DNA of 64,000 bases from Gemmobacter nectariphilus (GTDB lineage: Bacteria; Pseudomonadota; Alphaproteobacteria; Rhodobacterales; Rhodobacteraceae): positions 62,001 to 126,000 of the forward strand of contig DYMU01000001.1 of assembly GCA_020721445.1 (NCBI GenBank), in the 5' to 3' direction. Numbering within the stretch: position 1 is the first letter of the stretch; each line of letters begins with the position of its first letter. Below the pieces are notes generated by a model that was not told where the DNA came from, made no database searches, and saw nothing but the letters and a program-made list of their open reading frames with translations. A program made the position numbers and the translations under genes. Positions 2,776-22,448 of this stretch are shown one piece after another.

Positions 2776-3887
2776 GGCGTGGCTCCGGCAGCTAGGGCTT
2801 CGACAAGGGCGACCAGACGGTCGGTGGCATCCGGCCGGCCCTGGGACAGGGCATTGGCGGCCATGCGGCTGGCGGCGTCGGGCCGCGACAGGATGGCCGC
2901 CATGTGGCCGGACAGCGTGGCGGCGTCAAGCGCCTTTTCCGGGATCAACACCGCCGCCTCGGCCTGCACAAGACCGCGAGCGTTGGCGGTCTGGTGGTCG
3001 CCGGTGGCGGCGGCATAGGGGATCAGGATCGACGGCCGCCCGATCACGCTGATATCGGCAATCGACGACGCACCCGAGCGCGAGATCACCAATTGCGCCT
3101 CGCTCAGCCTTGCCGGGATGTCGGAGAAGAACGGCTGCACCTCGGCCCGGATGCCGGCCTGTTCATACTGATCGACCACGCGGGCGGTGTCTTCTTCCCG
3201 CGCCTGATGCACCACGCGCAGATTGCGGCGGATGGCATCGGGCAGCATGGCCACCGCTGCGGGCACCACATCCGACAGGATGCGCGCGCCCTGAGAGCCG
3301 CCGATCACCACCAGGCTGATCGGGTAATCGCCCGGCGCGATATAGCCTGCGCCCGACCGCTCCAGCACCGCCAGGCGCACCGGGTTGCCGGTATGCACGG
3401 CCTGCACCCCCTGCGGCAGATCGGTGGGCCAGGTGCCACAGGCAACCCGGTCGACGCGCGGCGCAAAAAACCGGTTCACCCGGCCCAGCACGCCATTTTG
3501 TTCATGGATCATCCGCGGCCGCCGCAAAGCCCAAGCCGCCGCAAGGGCCGGAATGGTCGGATAACCGCCAAAGCCCACCACCACCGCTGGCCTGTCACGC
3601 AGGTGCGCCATCGCAGCACCCAGCACACCGGCCGCAATCCGGAACGGCACCGCCAGCCGGGCCAGAACACCGCCGCGCGCAAAGGTGGCCGAGGCCGCCT
3701 GTTCCACCTGCACCACATGCGGAAAGCCGCCGGTATAGCGCGCGCCCCGCGCATCGGTCGACAGCTTGACCCGCCAGCCCCGGCGCACCATCGCCTCGGC
3801 CAAGGCCTGCGCCGGGAACATGTGCCCGCCGGTGCCGCCAGCGGCGATCAGCAAAAGTGGTGCCGGGCCGTGTGTCGCGTCCATCAC
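2772..3887 (-). CDS. murG: UDP-N-acetylglucosamine--N-acetylmuramyl-(pentapeptide) pyrophosphoryl-undecaprenol transferase MurG
   Basis: A 371-aa peripheral inner-membrane glycosyltransferase (GT28) that turns lipid I into lipid II. The N-terminal glycine loop [10 protein letters not shown] is at 17-26. [17 protein letters not shown] segment and the C-terminal-domain loop GGSQGAR follow, with the donor-site region [11 protein letters not shown] near residue 270. It overlaps ftsW upstream and murC downstream by 4 bp each, the order ftsW-murG-murC being classical for dcw clusters. Confidence 0.98.
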
Positions 3888-5047
3888 CGCCCCCTGCGAA
3901 GGATGTCGCCAATCTCGCCCTGCGGACGGGTGCGCGTCAAGGCCAGAAGCATGCCCACCGTAATGCCCGCCGCGATCACCGATGACCCTCCATAGCTGAC
4001 AAAGGGCAGCGTCATCCCCTTGGCGGGCAGCAGGCGCACCGCCACCCCCATGTTGATCATCGCCTGCACGCCAAAGATGCAGGCCAGCCCGGTGCCCGCC
4101 ATCCGGGTGAACGGATCACGCTCGCGCATCAGCCGGAACAGCGAGCGCACCACGATCGTGCCGTAAAGCGCGATGATCAGCAGCACCAGAATCAGCCCGT
4201 ATTCCTCGGCCGCGACAGCGATGATGAAATCGGTATGGGCATCGGGAAGCGTCCATTTCACCTGCCCCTCGCCCACGCCCACGCCAAAGAACCCGCCCTG
4301 TTGAATGGCGTTGGTGGCATAGCCGATCTGGCTGCGCGGGTCGATTTCGGGGTTCAGAAAGCCGTCGATCCGGCGGGCAAAATGCTCGGAGGTTTCATAG
4401 GCGATGGTGGCGGCAGCACCCACGATCCCGGTGATGATGGCGATAAGGGTCATCGGGGCACCCGCGACGAAGTAGATCACCCCCCAGCCGAACAGGATCA
4501 GCGCCGCCTGACCAAAGTCGGGCTGGATGGCCAGCAGCAGCACAACCGCTACCAGCAACCCGAACGACACCGCCTTGCCGGGGGGGCCGTTCACCTCTTG
4601 GCTGGACGCCATCAGCCAGGCCACCATCACCATGAAACCGGGTTTCAGGAACTCGGACGGTTGCACCGAGGCAAAGCCGAAGGAAAACCAGCGCACCGCC
4701 CCCTTGCCGAAATCGGTGCCGAAAAACGGCAACAGCAGCAGCGCCACAAAGGCGCCGGCAAAGCCGATCACCCCAAGACGGCGGATCATCGTGGGCGGCA
4801 TCATCGACACCCCCACCATCACCAGCAGCGCCACCGTTCCGAAAAACGCCTGCCGCTGCACATAATAGAAATCGTTCAGCCCGTTGCGGCTTGCCAAAGG
4901 CACCGAGGCCGCAAGCCCCAGCAAAAGCCCGATACCGAACAGCACCATTATGGCGGTCAGAGACCATTTGTCGATGGTGCGCCACCAACGGGGCAGCACC
5001 GGCTCGCTTACCCGAACGGGATTGGAGCCATAGACCATTTCAGTCAT
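3884..5047 (-). CDS. ftsW: lipid II polymerase FtsW (SEDS family)
   Basis: A 387-aa polytopic protein with about ten hydrophobic segments. It carries SEDS signatures: VQPSEFLKP in the middle, AAEEYGLI, and the C-terminal motif [15 protein letters not shown]. FtsW is the septal peptidoglycan polymerase that works with the transpeptidase FtsI, encoded upstream in this cluster. The 4-bp overlap with murG couples their translation. Upstream of its start lies a 162-bp divergent gap to the dehydrogenase gene, so a local promoter for the ftsW-murG-murC group is possible, though I see no convincing consensus. Confidence 0.96.
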
Positions 5048-16426: not shown

Positions 16427-16642
16427 AGATTTGGTTCCAAAGGGGTGGTTTGAACAGGATATTGTGGGTCAAACCCGGACCTGACTGGCATAGCTAGATA
16501 GTCACCAAGGCGTGAGCCCTATATGTTGTGTAGGCCGAGTTTTCCCGGCTTGGCCCCCTGGATGGAAAAAAGTTGCGGGCCCGCGGGGACATCTTTGGGC
16601 AAATGGGCCTTTTCCGGGCCAGCAATACGCAAGAACCGAAGG

Positions 16643-16702
16643 TTTCCCGCCAGTTTCCCAGATTTTCCCGGTTTGGCGATTCGCCGTGATCAGGCTTTCC
16701 CA
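16643..16702. promoter_or_regulatory. second MraZ-box-like cluster, opposite orientation
   Basis: On the minus strand GGGAAA boxes (CGGGAAAA, TGGGAAA, CGGGAAA) occur with GGG cores at 16669-16667, 16659-16657 and 16648-16646, spaced 10 and 11 bp. A fourth TGGGAAA is at 16702-16696. They lie about 270 bp upstream of the first group and just downstream of mrp. The interval 16104-16767 holds no protein gene that I can support. Confidence 0.5.
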
Positions 16703-16767
16703 GCCCATCCCGGCTTGTGGCGCCGCACCGCCGGGCCACCGATCAGGCCCCGTGCAGGCGCCCAGTG

Positions 16768-17841
16768 TCAGGCCATTCCGCCCTCGATCAGGCGTTGGGC
16801 CAGACGGGCATAGGCCTCGGCCTCGGGCGCGTCGGTGGCGGCGATCGGGGTGCCGCTGTCACCGGCCTGACGGACCGACAGGGTCAGCGGCAGTTCGCCC
16901 AGAAACGGCAGGCCCAGCTTGTCGGCCTCGGCCCGCACACCGCCGTGGCCGAAGATCTGGGTTTCATGGCCGCAATTGGGGCAGCAGAAGGTGGACATGT
17001 TCTCGATCAACCCCAGAACCGGGGTTTTCAGTTTGACGAACATGTCCAGCGCCTTGCGCGCATCCAACAGCGCCACGTCCTGCGGGGTGGAGACCACGAT
17101 GGCCCCGGTCAGTTGGGTGCGCTGGCACAGGGTCAGTTGGATATCGCCGGTACCGGGCGGCAGGTCGATGATCAGCACATCCAGCCGGCCCCAGGCCACT
17201 TGCGTCAGCAGTTGTTGCAGCGCGCCCATGATCATCGGACCGCGCCAGATCACCGCCTCGTCGTCTTTCAGCATCAGGCCCAGCGACATCATGGTGACGC
17301 CATGCGCGACGAGGGGTTCGATTATCTTGCCATCGGGGCTGCCAGGGCGGCGGTTGACGCCCATCATGCGGGGCTGGCTGGGGCCGTAGATATCGGCATC
17401 CAGCAGGCCGACGCGACGGCCCTGGCGGGCAAGCGCCACGGCAAGGTTGGACGAGACGGTGGATTTGCCGACGCCACCCTTGCCCGAGCCGACCGCGATG
17501 ATGCGGTCTATCCCTGTCAGCTTTTGCGGCCCACCCTGCTGCGGGGTCGGGTGCTGGCCGATCTTCAGGCTGGGGGCGGCAGGTTTCGGGCTGGGACCAT
17601 GGGCGGTGGTCACCACCTGCACCGATGTGACGCCGGGCAGGGCCCGCACCACGGCCTCGGCCTGCGGTTGCAGCGCCGCGATCTGCCGTGCCTCTTCCGG
17701 CGTGGCGGCCTCGATGACGAATCTGACGGTGCCACCGTCGATCGTCAGCGCCCGAATCAAATCGCGCGACGCCAGGGTGCCGCCACCGGGCACCGCGACC
17801 GTGCCAAGGGCGACCATCACATCGGCTTGAGAAAATGTCAT
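16768..17841 (-). CDS. mrp: Mrp/ApbC family iron-sulfur cluster carrier P-loop ATPase
   Basis: A 357-aa cytoplasmic protein. An N-terminal MIP18/DUF59 domain (about 1-80) is followed by a linker rich in Pro. The deviant Walker [10 protein letters not shown] (120-128), switch segment [14 protein letters not shown] and [10 protein letters not shown] are all present. The CPNC motif in [11 protein letters not shown] supplies the cluster-binding cysteines of the homodimer. It probably hands [4Fe-4S] clusters to apo-enzymes. It ends about 660 bp upstream of mraZ on the same strand, so it is a separate unit. Confidence 0.95.
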
Positions 17842-18011
17842 GGTGATTTCCTATATCGCCCATCTGCCCGTCACAGTTGCGATGTTTGCAGAAAAGCTCA
17901 AGCGCGTCTTGACCGATTGCTCAAAAAATGCGCGAAGCTGCTGTAATTCATGACATAATCGTGATGTTCAGCCATGCGGTTGTTGCATGGCAGCATTGCA
18001 TTCGGTATGTA

Positions 18012-18039
18012 TTGTGCAGGTGCAGCAATTGCCCCATCT
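18012..18039 (+). promoter_or_regulatory. probable heat-shock sigma (RpoH-type) promoter of the DUF1127-CcsR operon
   Basis: TTGTGCA at 18012-18018, 13 nt, then CCCCATCT at 18032-18039. The -10 matches the sigma-32 consensus CCCCATNT closely, while the -35 is a partial match to CTTGAAA. A start near 18046 gives a leader of about 50 nt. In R. sphaeroides the homologous operon is driven by the RpoHI/RpoHII sigma factors. Confidence 0.55.
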
Positions 18040-18098
18040 TTGAAAGGAACAGCGCGATCAATGATGCTGATGACTGTCAATGAAAAGGCGAGAGCACC

Positions 18099-18314
18099 AT
18101 GGCCTATGTCAATTCTTCCCGGGAAGGGGCTGCCGGACCGGTTCAGCGCGCCGGGAAATTTGTCGCAGGCCTGCGCCTGTCGTTGACCAGACGTCGGGTG
18201 TTCCGGCAGACGATACGTGAGTTGCAGGCCCTGTCAAACCGCGAACTGTCTGACCTGGGCATTGATCGGTCGATGATTACGCGGGTCTCGAGCGAGGCCG
18301 CCTACGGCAAGTAA
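18099..18314 (+). CDS. ccaF1: DUF1127 small RNA-binding protein, CcaF1-like
   Basis: A 71-aa basic protein. The C-terminal half, VFRQTIRELQALSNRELSDL followed by GIDRSMITRVSSEAAYG, is the DUF1127 helix-turn-helix-like motif with its conserved L..L..RELxDLGI core. The N-terminal half is Arg-rich. In R. sphaeroides the homologue CcaF1 binds RNA and affects maturation of the co-transcribed CcsR sRNAs and RNA turnover. The same gene order follows here: eleven bases after the stop the first CCTCC-loop hairpin begins. ATG at 18099 follows AAAAGGCGAGAG. A heat-shock-type promoter lies upstream. The gene symbol is transferred by context and domain. Confidence 0.85.
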   Translation: MAYVNSSREGAAGPVQRAGKFVAGLRLSLTRRRVFRQTIRELQALSNRELSDLGIDRSMITRVSSEAAYGK

Positions 18315-18317
18315 AGT

Positions 18318-18402
18318 TCTTTGCGAGGCCCCACTCCTCCCCTTCGGGGCCTGTAGCAAAAGCGTCGGCATCATTCCTCCTCCCTGATGCCGACGCCCTT
18401 TA
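18318..18402 (+). ncRNA. CcsR-type sRNA unit 1 (two CCTCC-loop hairpins)
   Basis: The first hairpin (18326-18352) has stem AGGCCCC/GGGGCCT with loop ACTCCTCCCCTTC. The second (18362-18396) is a perfect 12-bp stem GCGTCGGCATCA/TGATGCCGACGC with loop TTCCTCCTCCC, followed by CCTTTAAC. This weak-then-strong pair has the architecture of CcsR RNAs, which carry CCUCCUCCC in two loops and resemble the anti-Shine-Dalgarno of 16S rRNA. Ends are estimates. Downstream, a GGAAC-GAAA-GTTCC mini-hairpin (18407-18420) separates it from unit 2. Confidence 0.75.
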
Positions 18403-18424
18403 ACACGGAACGAAAGTTCCTATG

Positions 18425-18512
18425 TGATACCTGAGGCCCCCTCCTCCTCCCTGGGGTCGATTGGTAAAGCGGCACCCTCTCTCCTCCTCCCTGGGGGTGC
18501 CGCACTTTCTTT
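18425..18512 (+). ncRNA. CcsR-type sRNA unit 2
   Basis: First hairpin 18435-18458: stem GGCCCC/GGGGTC (one G-U pair), loop CTCCTCCTCCCT. Second hairpin 18469-18503: 9-bp stem GCGGCACCC/GGGTGCCGC, loop with CTCCTCCTCCC, followed by ACTTTCTTT. Hairpins are 10 nt apart. A GGGGC-CTTGT-GCCCC hairpin (18513-18527) without the motif lies between this unit and the next. Confidence 0.78.
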
Positions 18513-18531
18513 GGGGCCTTGTGCCCCACCA

Positions 18532-18614
18532 CAGTTCGAGCGGCTTTTTCTCCTCCCTGAGCCGGTCGGAATCGCGGCGGTCCTTCTCCTCCTCCCTGAG
18601 GGCCGCCGCACCAG
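18532..18614 (+). ncRNA. CcsR-type sRNA unit 3
   Basis: First hairpin 18541-18564: 5-bp stem CGGCT/AGCCG, loop TTTTCTCCTCCCTG. Second hairpin 18574-18609: 10-bp stem GCGGCGGTCC/GGGCCGCCGC with one G-U pair, loop TTCTCCTCCTCCCTGA. Spacing between hairpins is 9 nt, the same layout as units 1 and 2. A motif-free GGGCC-TGAT-GGCCC hairpin (18619-18632) follows. Confidence 0.76.
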
Positions 18615-18667
18615 TTTCGGGCCTGATGGCCCCGCGCGATTGCCCGGTCTGCGGATTGGGCGCACGA

Positions 18668-18797
18668 GATCGGAAAACAGCCTCCCCTTCCTCCTCCCTG
18701 GGGTTGCGGTTGCCGATAATTGCCCGGCCCTCCTCCTCCCTGGCCGGGATGGAATGATGCGGCGGCGCCCTTCCTCCTCCCTGGGCGTCGCCGTTTT
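18668..18797 (+). ncRNA. CcsR-type sRNA unit 4 (three hairpins)
   Basis: Hairpin one (18684-18703) has a weak CCCC/GGGG stem with loop TTCCTCCTCCCT. Hairpin two (18723-18748) has stem CCCGGCC/GGCCGGG with loop CTCCTCCTCCCT. Hairpin three (18760-18793) has an 11-bp stem with one G-U pair and loop TTCCTCCTCCCT, followed by TTTT. The last hairpin plus T-tract is a good Rho-independent terminator for the whole operon. It is unclear whether hairpin one belongs to this RNA or is an extra element. benE starts 63 nt downstream. Confidence 0.74.
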
Positions 18798-18859
18798 CAT
18801 ATCCGGGGGTTGCGGTTCCGGCGCGGGCTGGTCATCGTCGCGGCAACCTTGGGGGTGGA

Positions 18860-20011
18860 ATGCGGATTTCCCTGATTTCAGCGGCAGTTGTGGCGGCATT
18901 GGTGGGCTATGGGTCCACCATTGCGCTGGTGCTGGCTGCGGCGGCGGCGGTGGGTGCGGATGCAGGCCAGACCGCAAGCTGGGTGCTGGCGGTTTGCCTG
19001 GCCAAGGCGGTGGGGTCGGCATGGTTGTCGGCATGGAACCGGGTACCCGTGGTGCTGGCGTGGTCGACACCGGGGGCGGCGCTGATTGCGGCGACAACCG
19101 GCATCAGCATGGCGCAGGCGGTGGCGGCCTTTGTGTTGGCCGCCGGGTTGATCTTTCTGACGGCGGCGCTGCGCCCGCTTGGCCGCGCTGTGGCCGCGAT
19201 CCCCGATGGCATTGCGGCGGCGATGCTGGCCGGGGTGCTGTTGCCGTTTTGCCTGAAGGGCGCGGGTGCTGCCCAAGCAGCGCCGGGCCTGATCCTGCCG
19301 ATGGTGGCGGTGTTTGCACTGGTGCGGCTGTGGAACCCTGCGCTTGCGGTGCTGGCGGCGCTTGCAGCGGGGGTGACGCTGGCCTTTGGCACAGGTGCGG
19401 CGGTGGTTCCGGTGATCGGTTTTCCGGCTCCTGCCCCGGTGTTCATATGGCCCGAGTGGGATCTGGGCGTACTGATCGGGCTGGGGGTGCCCTTGTATCT
19501 GGTGACAATGGCCAGCCAGAACCTGCCCGGTTTTGCGGTGATGCGCGCGGCCGGGTATCAGCCACCGGTGACGCGGGCCCTGGCGGTGACGGGGGGGATT
19601 TCGGCGATCTCGGCGCTGTTTGGCGCGCATACGGTGAACATGGCGGCGATCACGGCGGCGATCTGCCTGGGCGAGGATGTGCATCCCGACCGCGACCAGC
19701 GCTGGAAGGTGGGGCTGGCCTATGCGGCGGTCTGGGTTTTGCTGGGGTTGGGGTCACCTGCGATTCTGGTGCTGCTGGCCGCCCCGCCGCCGCAGGTGAT
19801 GGCAGCCCTTGTGGCGCTGGCGCTGCTGGGGCCGCTGATGGGGGCGCTGGCCGGGGCCTATGCGGTGGCCGACACCCGCTTTGCCGCGACGATCACGCTG
19901 GCGGTCACCGGGTCAGGGGTGGCCGCGTTCGGCATTGGCGCGGCGTTCTGGGGGCTGGTGGCCGGGCTGGTGATTTACGCGATGGAGCGGGTCAAGGCGC
20001 GCCCTGTCTGA
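18860..20011 (+). CDS. benE: benzoate/H+ symporter family transporter (BenE-like)
   Basis: A 383-aa inner-membrane protein with about 11-12 hydrophobic segments, rich in Ala, Gly, Val and Leu. BenE-family signatures are seen: AWSTPGAALI near 65-75, IPDGIAAAMLAGVLLPFCLK (about 112-131), MASQNLPGFAVMRAAGY, and SALFGAHTVNMAAITAAICLGEDVHPD. The reference BenE imports benzoate with protons. No aromatic-degradation genes are nearby, so the real substrate is unknown. It lies downstream of the CcsR terminator, on the same strand, and may gain read-through. Confidence 0.85.
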   Translation: MRISLISAAVVAALVGYGSTIALVLAAAAAVGADAGQTASWVLAVCLAKAVGSAWLSAWNRVPVVLAWSTPGAALIAATTGISMAQAVAAFVLAAGLIFLTAALRPLGRAVAAIPDGIAAAMLAGVLLPFCLKGAGAAQAAPGLILPMVAVFALVRLWNPALAVLAALAAGVTLAFGTGAAVVPVIGFPAPAPVFIWPEWDLGVLIGLGVPLYLVTMASQNLPGFAVMRAAGYQPPVTRALAVTGGISAISALFGAHTVNMAAITAAICLGEDVHPDRDQRWKVGLAYAAVWVLLGLGSPAILVLLAAPPPQVMAALVALALLGPLMGALAGAYAVADTRFAATITLAVTGSGVAAFGIGAAFWGLVAGLVIYAMERVKARPV

Positions 20012-20017
20012 GACGCA

Positions 20018-20043
20018 GCACCTTTGGGCCGCGGGTGCGTTTT
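20018..20043 (+). terminator. candidate terminator after benE
   Basis: A short stem GCACC/GGTGC with an 11-nt G/C-rich loop, followed by GTTTT. The stem is only 5 bp, so this is a modest candidate. It runs straight into the tail of a dispersed repeat. Confidence 0.35.
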
Positions 20044-20062
20044 GGGTATTTTTGCCAAGAGG
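20040..20062 (+). repeat. dispersed intergenic repeat, partial copy C
   Basis: TTTTGGGTATTTTTGCCAAG has the tail half (GTATTT plus GCCAAG) of the repeat without the GCCTCCGGCGGG head. It lies between the convergent benE and uvrD. Confidence 0.5.
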
Positions 20063-20084
20063 AATGGCCAAGCGCGGTTCTGGT

Positions 20085-22448
20085 TCAGAACGGCACGTCA
20101 TCCACCTGATCGGCGGGAGTGACAAAGCGGGCCACCAGTTTCTTTTCACCGGCGTGGTCGAAAACGACATCCAGCTTGTCGCCTTCGATGCCGGTGACGC
20201 GGCCATAGCCGAACTTCTGGTGGAACACCCGGTCGCCGATGGAGAAGGCCGAAATCGCCTGGGCATCAATGGTCATGTGGCGGCTTTCGCGCGGCTGCTG
20301 CACCGGGCGGCTGGCCTGCCCGGCTTGCAGGCGCTTCCAGCCGGGGGAGTTGTAGACATCGGCCTTGGACACGCGGTCTTCCAAGGCTGACCCAAAGCCG
20401 ACCGGGGCCGCAGCCCCAAAACCGCCGCCGTAAAGGCCGGGCGGGGTCAGAACCTCGACATGATCGGGTGGCAGTTCGTCGATGAACCGGCTGGGAAGCT
20501 GGCTTTGCCACTGGCCATAAACCCGGCGGTTGGAGGCGAAGGAAATGGTGCAAAGCTCTTCGGCGCGGGTGATGCCGACATAAGCCAGACGGCGTTCTTC
20601 CTCGACGCCTTTCAGGCCGGATTCGTCCATGCTGCGCTGGCTGGGGAACAGGCCGTCTTCCCAGCCGGGCAGGAAGACCACCGGAAACTCCAGCCCTTTG
20701 GCGGCGTGCAGCGTCATGATGCTGATCTTCTCGGCGGCTTCCTCGGTTTCATTGTCCATGATCAGGCTGACGTGTTCGAGAAAGCCTTGCAGATTGTCGA
20801 ATTGTTCCAGCGCCTTGACCAGTTCCTTGAGGTTGTCGAGCCGGCCCGGGGCTTCGGGCGTCTTGTCGTTTTGCCACATCGTGGTGTAACCGGATTCGTC
20901 AAGGATCATCTCGGCCAGCGCGATGTGGTTGTAGTCGGGGGCCAGCGTGGCGGTGTGCCAGCGGTCAACGGCTTCGACGAACTGGCGCAACTGGCCCAAG
21001 CCTTTGCCGCCGATGGCACCCTTGGAAACTGCCTCACGCGCGCCGTCGAGCAGCGACACGCCCGCCGCACGGGCCAGACGCTGGATATCGCCTTGGGCCT
21101 TGTCGCCGAGGCCGCGCTTGGGGGTGTTGATGATGCGTTCAAACGCCAGATCGTCATCGGGTGACACGGCCATGCGGAAATAGGCCATGGCATCGCGAAT
21201 CTCTTGCCGTTCGTAAAAGCGCGGGCCGCCGATGACGCGGTACGGCAGGCCGATGGTCAGGAAGCGGTCTTCAAACGCGCGCATCTGGTGGCTGGCGCGG
21301 ACAAGGATGGCCTGATGGTCAAGGCTGACCGGGTCCATGCCACGGGTGCCGCGTTGCAGCGCCTCGGCCTCTTCGCCGATCCAGCGGGCCTCTTCCTCGC
21401 CGTCCCAATGGCCGATCAGGCGAACCTTTTCGCCCGGTTCTCCGGCGGTCCACAGGGTCTTGCCAAGGCGGCCCTTGTTGGCGGCGATCACGCCACTGGC
21501 GGCGGCAAGGATATGCGCGGTCGAGCGGTAGTTCTGTTCCAGCTTGATGACCGTGGCGCCCGGAAAGTCTTTTTCAAACCGTAGGATGTTGCCGACCTCG
21601 GCCCCGCGCCAGCCATAGATCGACTGATCGTCATCGCCCACGCAGCAGATGTTGCGGTGTCCTTGGGCCAGAAGGCGCAGCCACAGGTATTGGCAGATGT
21701 TGGTGTCCTGATATTCGTCCACCAGAATGTAGCGAAACCAGCGGTGGTATTGCGCAAGAACGTCAGGATGGGCCTGAAAGATGGTGACGCAATGCAACAG
21801 CAGGTCGCCGAAATCGGTGGCGTTCAGGGTGCGCAGGCGGTCTTGATAGGCGGCGTAAAGCTCGGTCCCGCGGTTGCTATAGCCTGACGCCTCGGCCGAT
21901 GGCACGTTAGCAGGCGTCAGCGCGCGGTTTTTCCAGCCGTCGATCATGCCGGCCAACATGCGGGCGGGCCAGCGTTTTTCGTCGATGTCGGCGGCACTGA
22001 TCAACTGTTTCAGCAGGCGGATCTGGTCGTCGGTGTCCAGAATGGTGAAGTTGGGTTTCAGCCCTGCCAGTTCGGCATGGCGGCGCAGGATTTTCACCGA
22101 CAGCGAGTGAAACGTGCCCATCCAAGGCATGCCTTCGGCCACCTGCCCCAGCAGACGCCCGACGCGATCCTTCATCTCGCGCGCGGCCTTGTTGGTAAAG
22201 GTGACGGCAAGGATTTCGTTCGGGCGGGCGCGGTGGGTGTTCAGAAGATGCACGATGCGGGCGGTCAGCGCCTTGGTCTTGCCGGTGCCTGCACCCGCCA
22301 GCATCAGCACCGGGCCATCCAGCGCCTCGACTGCCGCGCGTTGGGCGGGGTTCAGGTCATCAAGATAGGGCGCAGGCCGCGCGGCCATGGCGCGCTGAGA
22401 CAGCGGAACCGCTGCCTCAAACGCTTCGCTTTCGTTAAACTGTGTCAT
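20085..22448 (-). CDS. uvrD: UvrD/PcrA-type ATP-dependent 3'-5' DNA helicase
   Basis: A 787-aa superfamily 1A helicase for nucleotide excision and mismatch repair. Motifs in order: LNPAQRAAVEALDGPVL, Walker A GAGTGKT (52-58), VTFTNKAAREM, DEYQDTN, GDDDQSIYGWRGA, LEQNYRST, TLHAAKGLEFPVVFLPGWEDG, and EERRLAYVGITRA. A C-terminal Tudor-like segment (YGRVTGIEGDKLDVVFDHAGEKKLVARFV) is typical of PcrA/UvrD. The start at 22448 is near a LexA box (22489-22503), so SOS induction is likely. It is convergent with benE. Confidence 0.97.
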   Translation of the reverse strand: MTQFNESEAFEAAVPLSQRAMAARPAPYLDDLNPAQRAAVEALDGPVLMLAGAGTGKTKALTARIVHLLNTHRARPNEILAVTFTNKAAREMKDRVGRLLGQVAEGMPWMGTFHSLSVKILRRHAELAGLKPNFTILDTDDQIRLLKQLISAADIDEKRWPARMLAGMIDGWKNRALTPANVPSAEASGYSNRGTELYAAYQDRLRTLNATDFGDLLLHCVTIFQAHPDVLAQYHRWFRYILVDEYQDTNICQYLWLRLLAQGHRNICCVGDDDQSIYGWRGAEVGNILRFEKDFPGATVIKLEQNYRSTAHILAAASGVIAANKGRLGKTLWTAGEPGEKVRLIGHWDGEEEARWIGEEAEALQRGTRGMDPVSLDHQAILVRASHQMRAFEDRFLTIGLPYRVIGGPRFYERQEIRDAMAYFRMAVSPDDDLAFERIINTPKRGLGDKAQGDIQRLARAAGVSLLDGAREAVSKGAIGGKGLGQLRQFVEAVDRWHTATLAPDYNHIALAEMILDESGYTTMWQNDKTPEAPGRLDNLKELVKALEQFDNLQGFLEHVSLIMDNETEEAAEKISIMTLHAAKGLEFPVVFLPGWEDGLFPSQRSMDESGLKGVEEERRLAYVGITRAEELCTISFASNRRVYGQWQSQLPSRFIDELPPDHVEVLTPPGLYGGGFGAAAPVGFGSALEDRVSKADVYNSPGWKRLQAGQASRPVQQPRESRHMTIDAQAISAFSIGDRVFHQKFGYGRVTGIEGDKLDVVFDHAGEKKLVARFVTPADQVDDVPF

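Follow-up and report, generated by a model that had tools for sequence, protein, structure and literature searches.

In R. sphaeroides, the small RNAs (sRNAs) CcsR1-4 are reported to be co-transcribed with ccaF1 (PMC10253847). RS0680a has been described as carrying two stem-loops of the anti-Shine-Dalgarno (aSD) type (PMC3927594), flhR has been reported as a target of CcsR1-4 in R. sphaeroides (PMC8307010), and the CcsR RNAs have been described as modulators of pyruvate dehydrogenase (PMC8625941). CcsR, SorX, and SorY were all presented as being under the control of alternative sigma factors (PMC8307010). The same loops are found in the ar14 sRNAs (NfeR1) of Sinorhizobium, which have three hairpins. 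NfeR1 is a stand-alone sRNA without a DUF1127 gene; loops of its type silence mRNAs at the translation start, and its promoter contains an LsrB site (PMC10746234). In the LsrB/VtlR regulon of Rhizobiales (AbcR1, NfeR1, and DUF1127 genes), the box of the regulator lies upstream of DUF1127 genes and aSD sRNAs, and the regulator gene is followed by a box and an sRNA; both arrangements recur in the genome studied here.

The window, by which the whole analysed stretch of 64,000 nucleotides is meant, contains on its plus strand a gene (18099-18314) for a CcaF1-like DUF1127 protein of 71 aa (PF06568, E 1.9e-12, 47.1 bits with a cut-off of 23.3), which gave only two chance-level matches among solved structures. 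Directly 3' of this gene, at 18320-18797 on the same strand, nine stem-loops were obtained when the TCCTCC core was forced to stay unpaired during folding: hairpin 1 at 18320-18360, hairpin 2 at 18364-18394, hairpin 3 at 18435-18458, hairpin 4 at 18469-18503, hairpin 5 at 18535-18570, hairpin 6 at 18574-18609, hairpin 7 at 18680-18707, hairpin 8 at 18723-18748, and hairpin 9 at 18749-18800, with its core at 18759-18794. A preliminary description of this DNA had listed eight stem-loops with the motif and one variant. The total of nine was confirmed but the division was not, since CTCCTCCC is present in all nine hairpins and CCTCCTCCC in seven; hairpin 1 diverges 3' of the motif, where CTTCGG replaces TG. 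All seven copies of CCTCCTCCC in the window belong to the array (0.66 expected; none of 100 shuffles reached seven). A scan of the whole window revealed scattered TCCTCC hairpins elsewhere, three on the plus and two on the minus strand, none of them with CTCCTCCC. The stop codon TAA of the DUF1127 gene is located at 18312-18314, and the start of the array at 12 bp behind it, as first described, holds for the strong stem of hairpin 1 (about 12 nt on) but not for a weaker outer stem, which begins at about 6 nt. The end was described correctly: behind GC hairpin 9 comes a short stretch of T, TTTT at 18794-18797.

The fold of 18312-18800 has a z of -7.2, and none of 100 shuffles was equally good. 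When the motifs were kept fixed and their flanks were shuffled 200 times, on average 3.8 and at most eight hairpins were formed, never nine, and the mean summed energy was -24.6 as against the observed -149.5 kcal/mol. The same picture emerged without any folding: each motif-anchored arm of the nine hairpins fits its own partner better than a permuted one, the observed value being reached in none of 5000 permutations, and for the 753 motif instances from 81 loci the arm pairing amounted to 5932 versus 4702 ± 23 in 200 permutations. Covariation was examined in the second motif hairpin, using an ungapped alignment of 31 rows (the window plus 30 of 80 related loci; 23 distinct) that were chosen by one loop register, a choice that favours pairing; 31 loci had the register and one of them, L052, was dropped as a duplicate. 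In this alignment, 87 % of the cells are paired and two-sided changes occur in all 12 pairs. The covariation score of 0.749 compares with 0.203 after shuffling (0 of 500 shuffles reached it), while partners slid out of register pair in 32-67 % of the cells, the highest value being that of +3 (67 %, covariation score 0.398). The innermost pair is not conserved, being unpaired in 19 of the 23 distinct rows. Judged by partner permutation and covariation, the structure of the array hairpins is under selection, and the earlier suggestion that stems vary around a constant, structurally selected loop can be upheld; the loop also proved to be conserved across the relatives. A low-complexity, C-rich tandem repeat without RNA function would be another way to read such an array, and 40 of 81 arrays do contain tandem units. 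No such unit was found in the window array; its stems differ, pairing is kept through compensating changes, and the flank shuffles fail to give nine hairpins. This reading is hardly credible and was rejected on the basis of the flank shuffles, the partner permutation, and the covariation.

Several other elements were seen in the array. Its minimum-energy fold contains a stem of 8 bp with a four-base loop and no motif at 18642-18661 (plus strand). As the distance of 106 nt between hairpins 6 and 7 equals about one long plus one short step and this motif-less stem lies inside it, one may speculate that it is a decayed tenth hairpin. The linkers also hold two short GC hairpins, similar to each other and lacking the motif (18512-18527 and 18617-18632), which are perhaps processing marks. 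Long open reading frames (ORFs) across the array (18420-19097, minus strand, and 18424-20109, plus strand) were taken as by-products of the C-rich repeats.

Hairpins 1 and 2 (18316-18401, plus strand) match the CcsR1 family RF02791 with 79.8 bits, and theirs is the only one of four CcsR-like pairs that reaches the gathering score of 65.3. The other three score 43-56 bits, that is, 55.5 bits for hairpins 3 and 4 (18426-18508, plus strand), 45.0 bits for hairpins 5 and 6 (18534-18614, plus strand), and 43.3 bits for a match over 18715-18799. The terminal trio of hairpins 7-9 with TTTT at its end (18670-18797, plus strand) gave the best match in the array to ar14 (NfeR1; RF02344), 51.8 bits, below the gathering score of 58.8. 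Because the CcsR1 match exceeds its gathering score, the DUF1127 domain is present, and the neighbouring genes are shared, the comparison supports the assignment of the locus as the CcaF1-CcsR (CIN1/cuckoo) operon of this genome, a kind already known, in agreement with the orthology put forward earlier. The window is like CcaF1-CcsR1-4 of R. sphaeroides in its 71-aa DUF1127 gene followed directly by paired hairpins, in loops of the CCUCCUCCC type on variable stems, and, as far as can be read from the DNA, perhaps also in an RpoH-like promoter and a terminator-like end. It differs in having nine hairpins, where four pairs have been published, and in its terminal trio and one possibly decayed hairpin. 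The trio has three hairpins and the loops of the ar14 sRNAs, although it sits behind a DUF1127 gene, which the stand-alone NfeR1 does not. Another difference from R. sphaeroides is a second, two-hairpin paralogue elsewhere in the genome (L005:1180-1580, on contig C36), where a 71-aa DUF1127 gene with the same promoter block is followed by two aSD hairpins and TTTT.

Relatives were collected by querying named genomes with eight aligned DUF1127 sequences from close relatives, and the best 80 of 225 were kept; these genomes are related, so the counts are not independent, and L051 and L052 represent one strain. A sequence pattern, rather than an HMM, served to recognise DUF1127 genes, both in the hairpin counts and in the neighbourhoods of the strict box sites discussed below. 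A DUF1127 ORF was recognised in 77 of these 80 Rhodobacterales loci, while the three others have 9, 8, and 10 CTCCTCC motifs downstream. Among the best 80 of 225, all 77 recognised loci carry 3-20 hairpins, the first of which starts 1-99 nt past the DUF1127 stop, and within 13 nt of it in 72. Eight hairpins were found in Cereibacter johrii (L051, L052) and Luteovulum azotoformans (L050), which fits the four R. sphaeroides CcsR RNAs of two loops each cited in the preliminary description; these loci have mraZ and mrp upstream, as at the window locus. Cereibacter changlensis has 13 hairpins, and L047, a close relative with a 95 % identical Mrp, has nine, arranged in the same order as in the window. 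In the fetched flanks of the best 80 of 225 relatives, mrp was found at 72, mraZ at 67, mraW at 62, uvrD at 42, and benE at 29 loci, and the order mraW-mraZ-mrp-DUF1127-array is recurrent. In the window, the stretch before the mraZ-like ORF lies at 16470-16770 on the minus strand, in the conserved mraZ-mrp-ccaF1 neighbourhood; in R. sphaeroides, the sRNA UpsM is reported to be made from the mraZ leader (PMC7866481). The tandem units mentioned above commonly have periods of about 100-122 bp, corresponding to two hairpins, with shorter ones of 35-43, 60, and 73-78 bp, and periods of 183-189 bp (four hairpins) in four Paracoccus loci. The largest array observed, of 20 hairpins, is that of Paracoccus saliphilus (L113, about 3727-4630), in which a four-hairpin unit of 188 bp is repeated 4.2 times with 96 % identity. 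The variation from 3 to 20 hairpins behind ccaF1 in the 77 relatives, together with the tandem duplication of whole sRNA units in many of them, suggests that seed dosage evolves quickly while the loop remains fixed.

That the array begins 1-99 nt after the DUF1127 stop at every one of the 77 scored loci (best 80 of 225) would also suit a function mainly in cis: the hairpins would be a 3' untranslated region that shields the ccaF1 message from exonucleases and is bound by CcaF1 for autoregulation, with the loops as protein sites. The reported part of CcaF1 in the maturation of these RNAs (PMC10253847) is compatible with this. Such a role leaves aside that the loop is identical to the anti-Shine-Dalgarno, that relatives standing alone, without a DUF1127 gene, repress through the same loops (NfeR1; PMC10746234), that a stand-alone three-hairpin form with the same promoter block exists in the same family (L255), and that flhR is reported as a target in trans (PMC8307010). 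We consider a mainly cis-acting array improbable.

The best explanation overall, to which we assign a probability of about 0.8, is a CcaF1-CcsR operon that yields processed RNAs with aSD hairpins and is under RpoH-type and LsrB/VtlR-type control. This explanation builds on the gene, the hairpins, their orthology and covariation, the gene order, the conservation of the promoter block, and the presence of a regulator homologue, all read from sequence, and from these it predicts that the locus is expressed and processed, that it has targets, and that the regulator binds its box. One promoter would give a transcript that encodes the DUF1127 RNA-binding protein and carries nine aSD hairpins at its 3' side, the last three tightly spaced and the very last terminator-like. 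As in R. sphaeroides, RNase E together with CcaF1 would probably process this transcript into short RNAs, each with two or three hairpins, and the C-rich loops would pair with purine-rich ribosome-binding sites and so lower translation. Transcription would probably have two inputs, an RpoH-type sigma factor and a LysR regulator of the LsrB/VtlR type, which would bind a conserved upstream dyad and also serve a SorX/SorY-like sRNA beside its own gene.

The likeness of the loop to the anti-Shine-Dalgarno, already pointed out in the preliminary description, agrees with the report on RS0680a (PMC3927594) and with the tested NfeR1 loops (PMC10746234); each RNA might, as was also put forward there, mask many ribosome-binding sites. 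In RNAduplex calculations, the loop CUCCUCCCUG pairs with CAGGGAGGAG at -19.0 and with GGGAGGAG at -16.0 kcal/mol, but with the canonical AAGGAGGUGA at only -9.2 kcal/mol, whereas the tail of 16S rRNA prefers the canonical site (-16.1 vs -11.3). Such preferences fit a role in which only particular sites are masked, not every one. Within the 64-kb window, GGGAGGAG is absent from the plus strand, and on the minus strand it occurs nine times, each time as the complement of an array motif.

An addition to the preliminary description, which made no mention of it, is a conserved promoter block. When upstream regions were aligned, conservation extended over about 70 bases, interrupted by more variable stretches; the elements of this block were then counted in 82 upstream regions (those of the window, the 80 loci, and L005). 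The block contains a LysR-type dyad, CCATGC-N7-GCATGG, at 17972-17990 (plus strand), which has the T-N11-A form generic for LysR proteins and is centred at about -65 from a transcription start predicted near 18046, the usual place for LysR recognition sites. Exact ATGC-N7-GCAT was found in 73 of the 82 upstream regions, compared with a mean of 0.15 after shuffling. A core-promoter-like element, TTGTGC...CCCCATCT, marked by its conservation and overlapped by a second LysR-like half-site pair, lies at 18012-18039 (plus strand) and occurs with up to two mismatches in 74 of the 82 regions, in 64 of them exactly (shuffled mean 2.85); judged by its sequence, this core looks RpoH-like. TTGTGCANNTGCAGCA is present with at most two mismatches in 81 of the 82. 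The piece TGCATGGCAGCATTG at 17984-17998 (plus strand) was found with at most three mismatches in 74 of the 82 regions, 73 of them on the strand of the window; it turned up in 1.2 % of shuffled regions and in 1.3 % when motifs were shuffled. This piece agrees at 14 of 15 positions with the reverse complement of the published VtlR-binding motif CAATGCAGCCATGCA (PMC12595884). Compared with the narrower LsrB consensus GCAT-N3-TG-N3-T given in PMC8844928, the window is one base short, with AG where TG is expected. The bare 15-base VtlR motif (one free position) has 80 sites with at most two mismatches in the genome and was taken as uninformative; one of these sites, in the array promoter, is exact, and seven have one mismatch.

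A candidate for the protein that binds this block was found through G073, a genome hit blindly by a class-wide scan with a pattern built from ccaF1 promoters and the VtlR motif. In G073, a LysR gene stands next after trxB and has the box 68 bp past its end; it is followed by a SorX-like RNA, which scores 42.6 bits (less than the gathering score) and has the loop CTCCCTCCC; the arrangement is like that of trxB, vtlR, and abcR described in PMC7486931. The LysR protein of G073 (P0001) has LysR domains. At E<=1e-60, it has a single match in the genome of the window (L224), to which it is 50 % identical, one match each in 58 of 61 genomes of the same family, this one included, and one each in 80 of 101 genomes overall. 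The best PDB match of the L224 protein is 9HH1 (244.5 bits over 285 residues; next chain 109.4), which is LsrB of A. tumefaciens (PMC11975290), while NCBIfam gave it no name, none of the 25 models listed out of 56 reaching its cut-off. By homology, the genome has one LsrB-type LysR regulator, and this match speaks against the statement in PMC11975290 that LsrB is unique to Rhizobiales. The protein has no cysteines and its 30 homologues have 0-2, compared with two in the B. abortus protein and four in A. tumefaciens LsrB, in which thiols are reported to matter (PMC11975290); the thiol switch is therefore absent from it. The trxB neighbourhood of this genome was rejected as the place of the regulator, since it has no LysR gene; the adjoining gene reads like a putative Lrp gene.

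With up to two mismatches, the box is located 3-209 bp behind the LysR gene at 21 of 31 homologue loci and at 11 of the 12 from Rhodobacteraceae, whereas no such box follows the gene at 10 of the 31. RNA families were scanned in 13 of the 31 loci. SorX/SorY-like RNAs (E up to 0.5) were found behind the LysR gene at all nine Rhodobacteraceae loci scanned, four of them reaching the gathering score of SorX and none that of SorY, with a weak match (26.1 bits) in L212. In the genome of the window, such an sRNA (L224:2669-2860, minus strand, contig C1) lies behind the LsrB-type gene and the box, with a match below both gathering scores, and before an ORF of 720 aa that reads like a putative purL. 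Binding of the box by the LsrB-type protein is predicted from DNA and protein comparison, the T-N11-A form would suit many LysR proteins, and the protein lacks the redox cysteines; another LysR protein or a different regulator might occupy the upstream block, the LsrB-type protein being a paralogue with other targets. The recurrence of the extended box behind the LsrB-type gene at the distances and loci given above, together with the stretch LSQSA[VI]SRQ of the DNA-binding domain, which is kept in this protein and in all aligned homologues except L215, makes this somewhat unlikely, and control by the LsrB-type regulator remains the preferred reading.

A strict box pattern matched at 24 sites, spread over 19 of 80 Rhodobacteraceae genomes, and at none with the reversed control. 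The pattern was composed after the regulator-linked sites were known, so that its 10 regulator matches are not blind, and two of the 24 sites are those of the genome itself that supplied the motif; the RNA-family scan covered 18 of the 24 loci. Seven sites precede a DUF1127 gene with aSD hairpins, and at one (L255, in G063) three aSD hairpins come immediately after the box region, with no DUF1127 gene in between. Ten are located 38-233 bp behind a LysR match, before a SorX/SorY-like RNA, and six have no such neighbour, two of these being inside ORFs. In L255, the whole promoter block (box near position 1500 of its strand) is followed by the three hairpins and a run of eight T; from its sequence, this locus looks like a stand-alone NfeR1-like form in Rhodobacteraceae. 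No strict site was found in 61 of the 80 genomes, some of which (for instance G040 and G049) have CcsR matches. The class-wide scan gave 32 sites in 27 of 241 genomes, for 30 of which loci were obtained (RNA families scanned in 12); a DUF1127 gene with hairpins is present at only two of the 30, one being that of the window.

In the genome of the window, three of five DUF1127 genes have the box (contigs C29, C36, and C40) and two do not. The gene on C40 (L232, about 1500-1830 on the box strand) encodes 73 aa and has the box 104-106 bp upstream, and CTCC hairpins are absent behind it. Another box of this genome (L227, G000:C13:84116, at about position 1500 on its strand) is at the end of one ORF, with a putative dihydrolipoyl dehydrogenase gene 92 bp downstream. 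In a further Rhodobacteraceae genome (L154:1497-1661), the box lies about 53 bp before a SorX match of 51.6 bits, above gathering. In two other families of the class (L135, L150), box-like sites, that of L135 inside an ORF, are located about 160-180 bp before suhB/MmgR sRNA matches.

The distribution of the 24 strict sites (eight with aSD hairpins, ten with regulator and SorX/SorY-like RNA, six unexplained) suggests one regulon. On balance, we lean towards the view that the ccaF1-CcsR arrays and the SorX/SorY-type RNAs of Rhodobacterales form a single regulon under an LsrB/VtlR-type regulator that has no thiol pair, and that this regulon and the LsrB-AbcR/NfeR1-DUF1127 regulon of Rhizobiales are homologous. 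In the genome of the window, it would differ from the latter in a regulator that lacks cysteines, lies away from trxB, and neighbours a SorX/SorY-like sRNA, and in a ccaF1 core promoter that looks RpoH-like, not sigma-70. A limited literature search, mostly of titles and the beginnings of abstracts, gave no report tying CcaF1, SorX, or R. sphaeroides sRNAs to LysR or LsrB; the link between the LsrB-type regulator and ccaF1-CcsR may be new, the locus itself being known.

The switch site in the promoter points to a regulator hitherto described mainly in rhizobia and their relatives. A single candidate regulator can be named for the Rhodobacter stress sRNAs CcsR, SorX, and SorY, and the confinement of LsrB to Rhizobiales is called into question. 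If the proposed regulon is real, the link between the regulator, DUF1127 genes, and aSD RNAs would predate both orders and would need no thiol switch.
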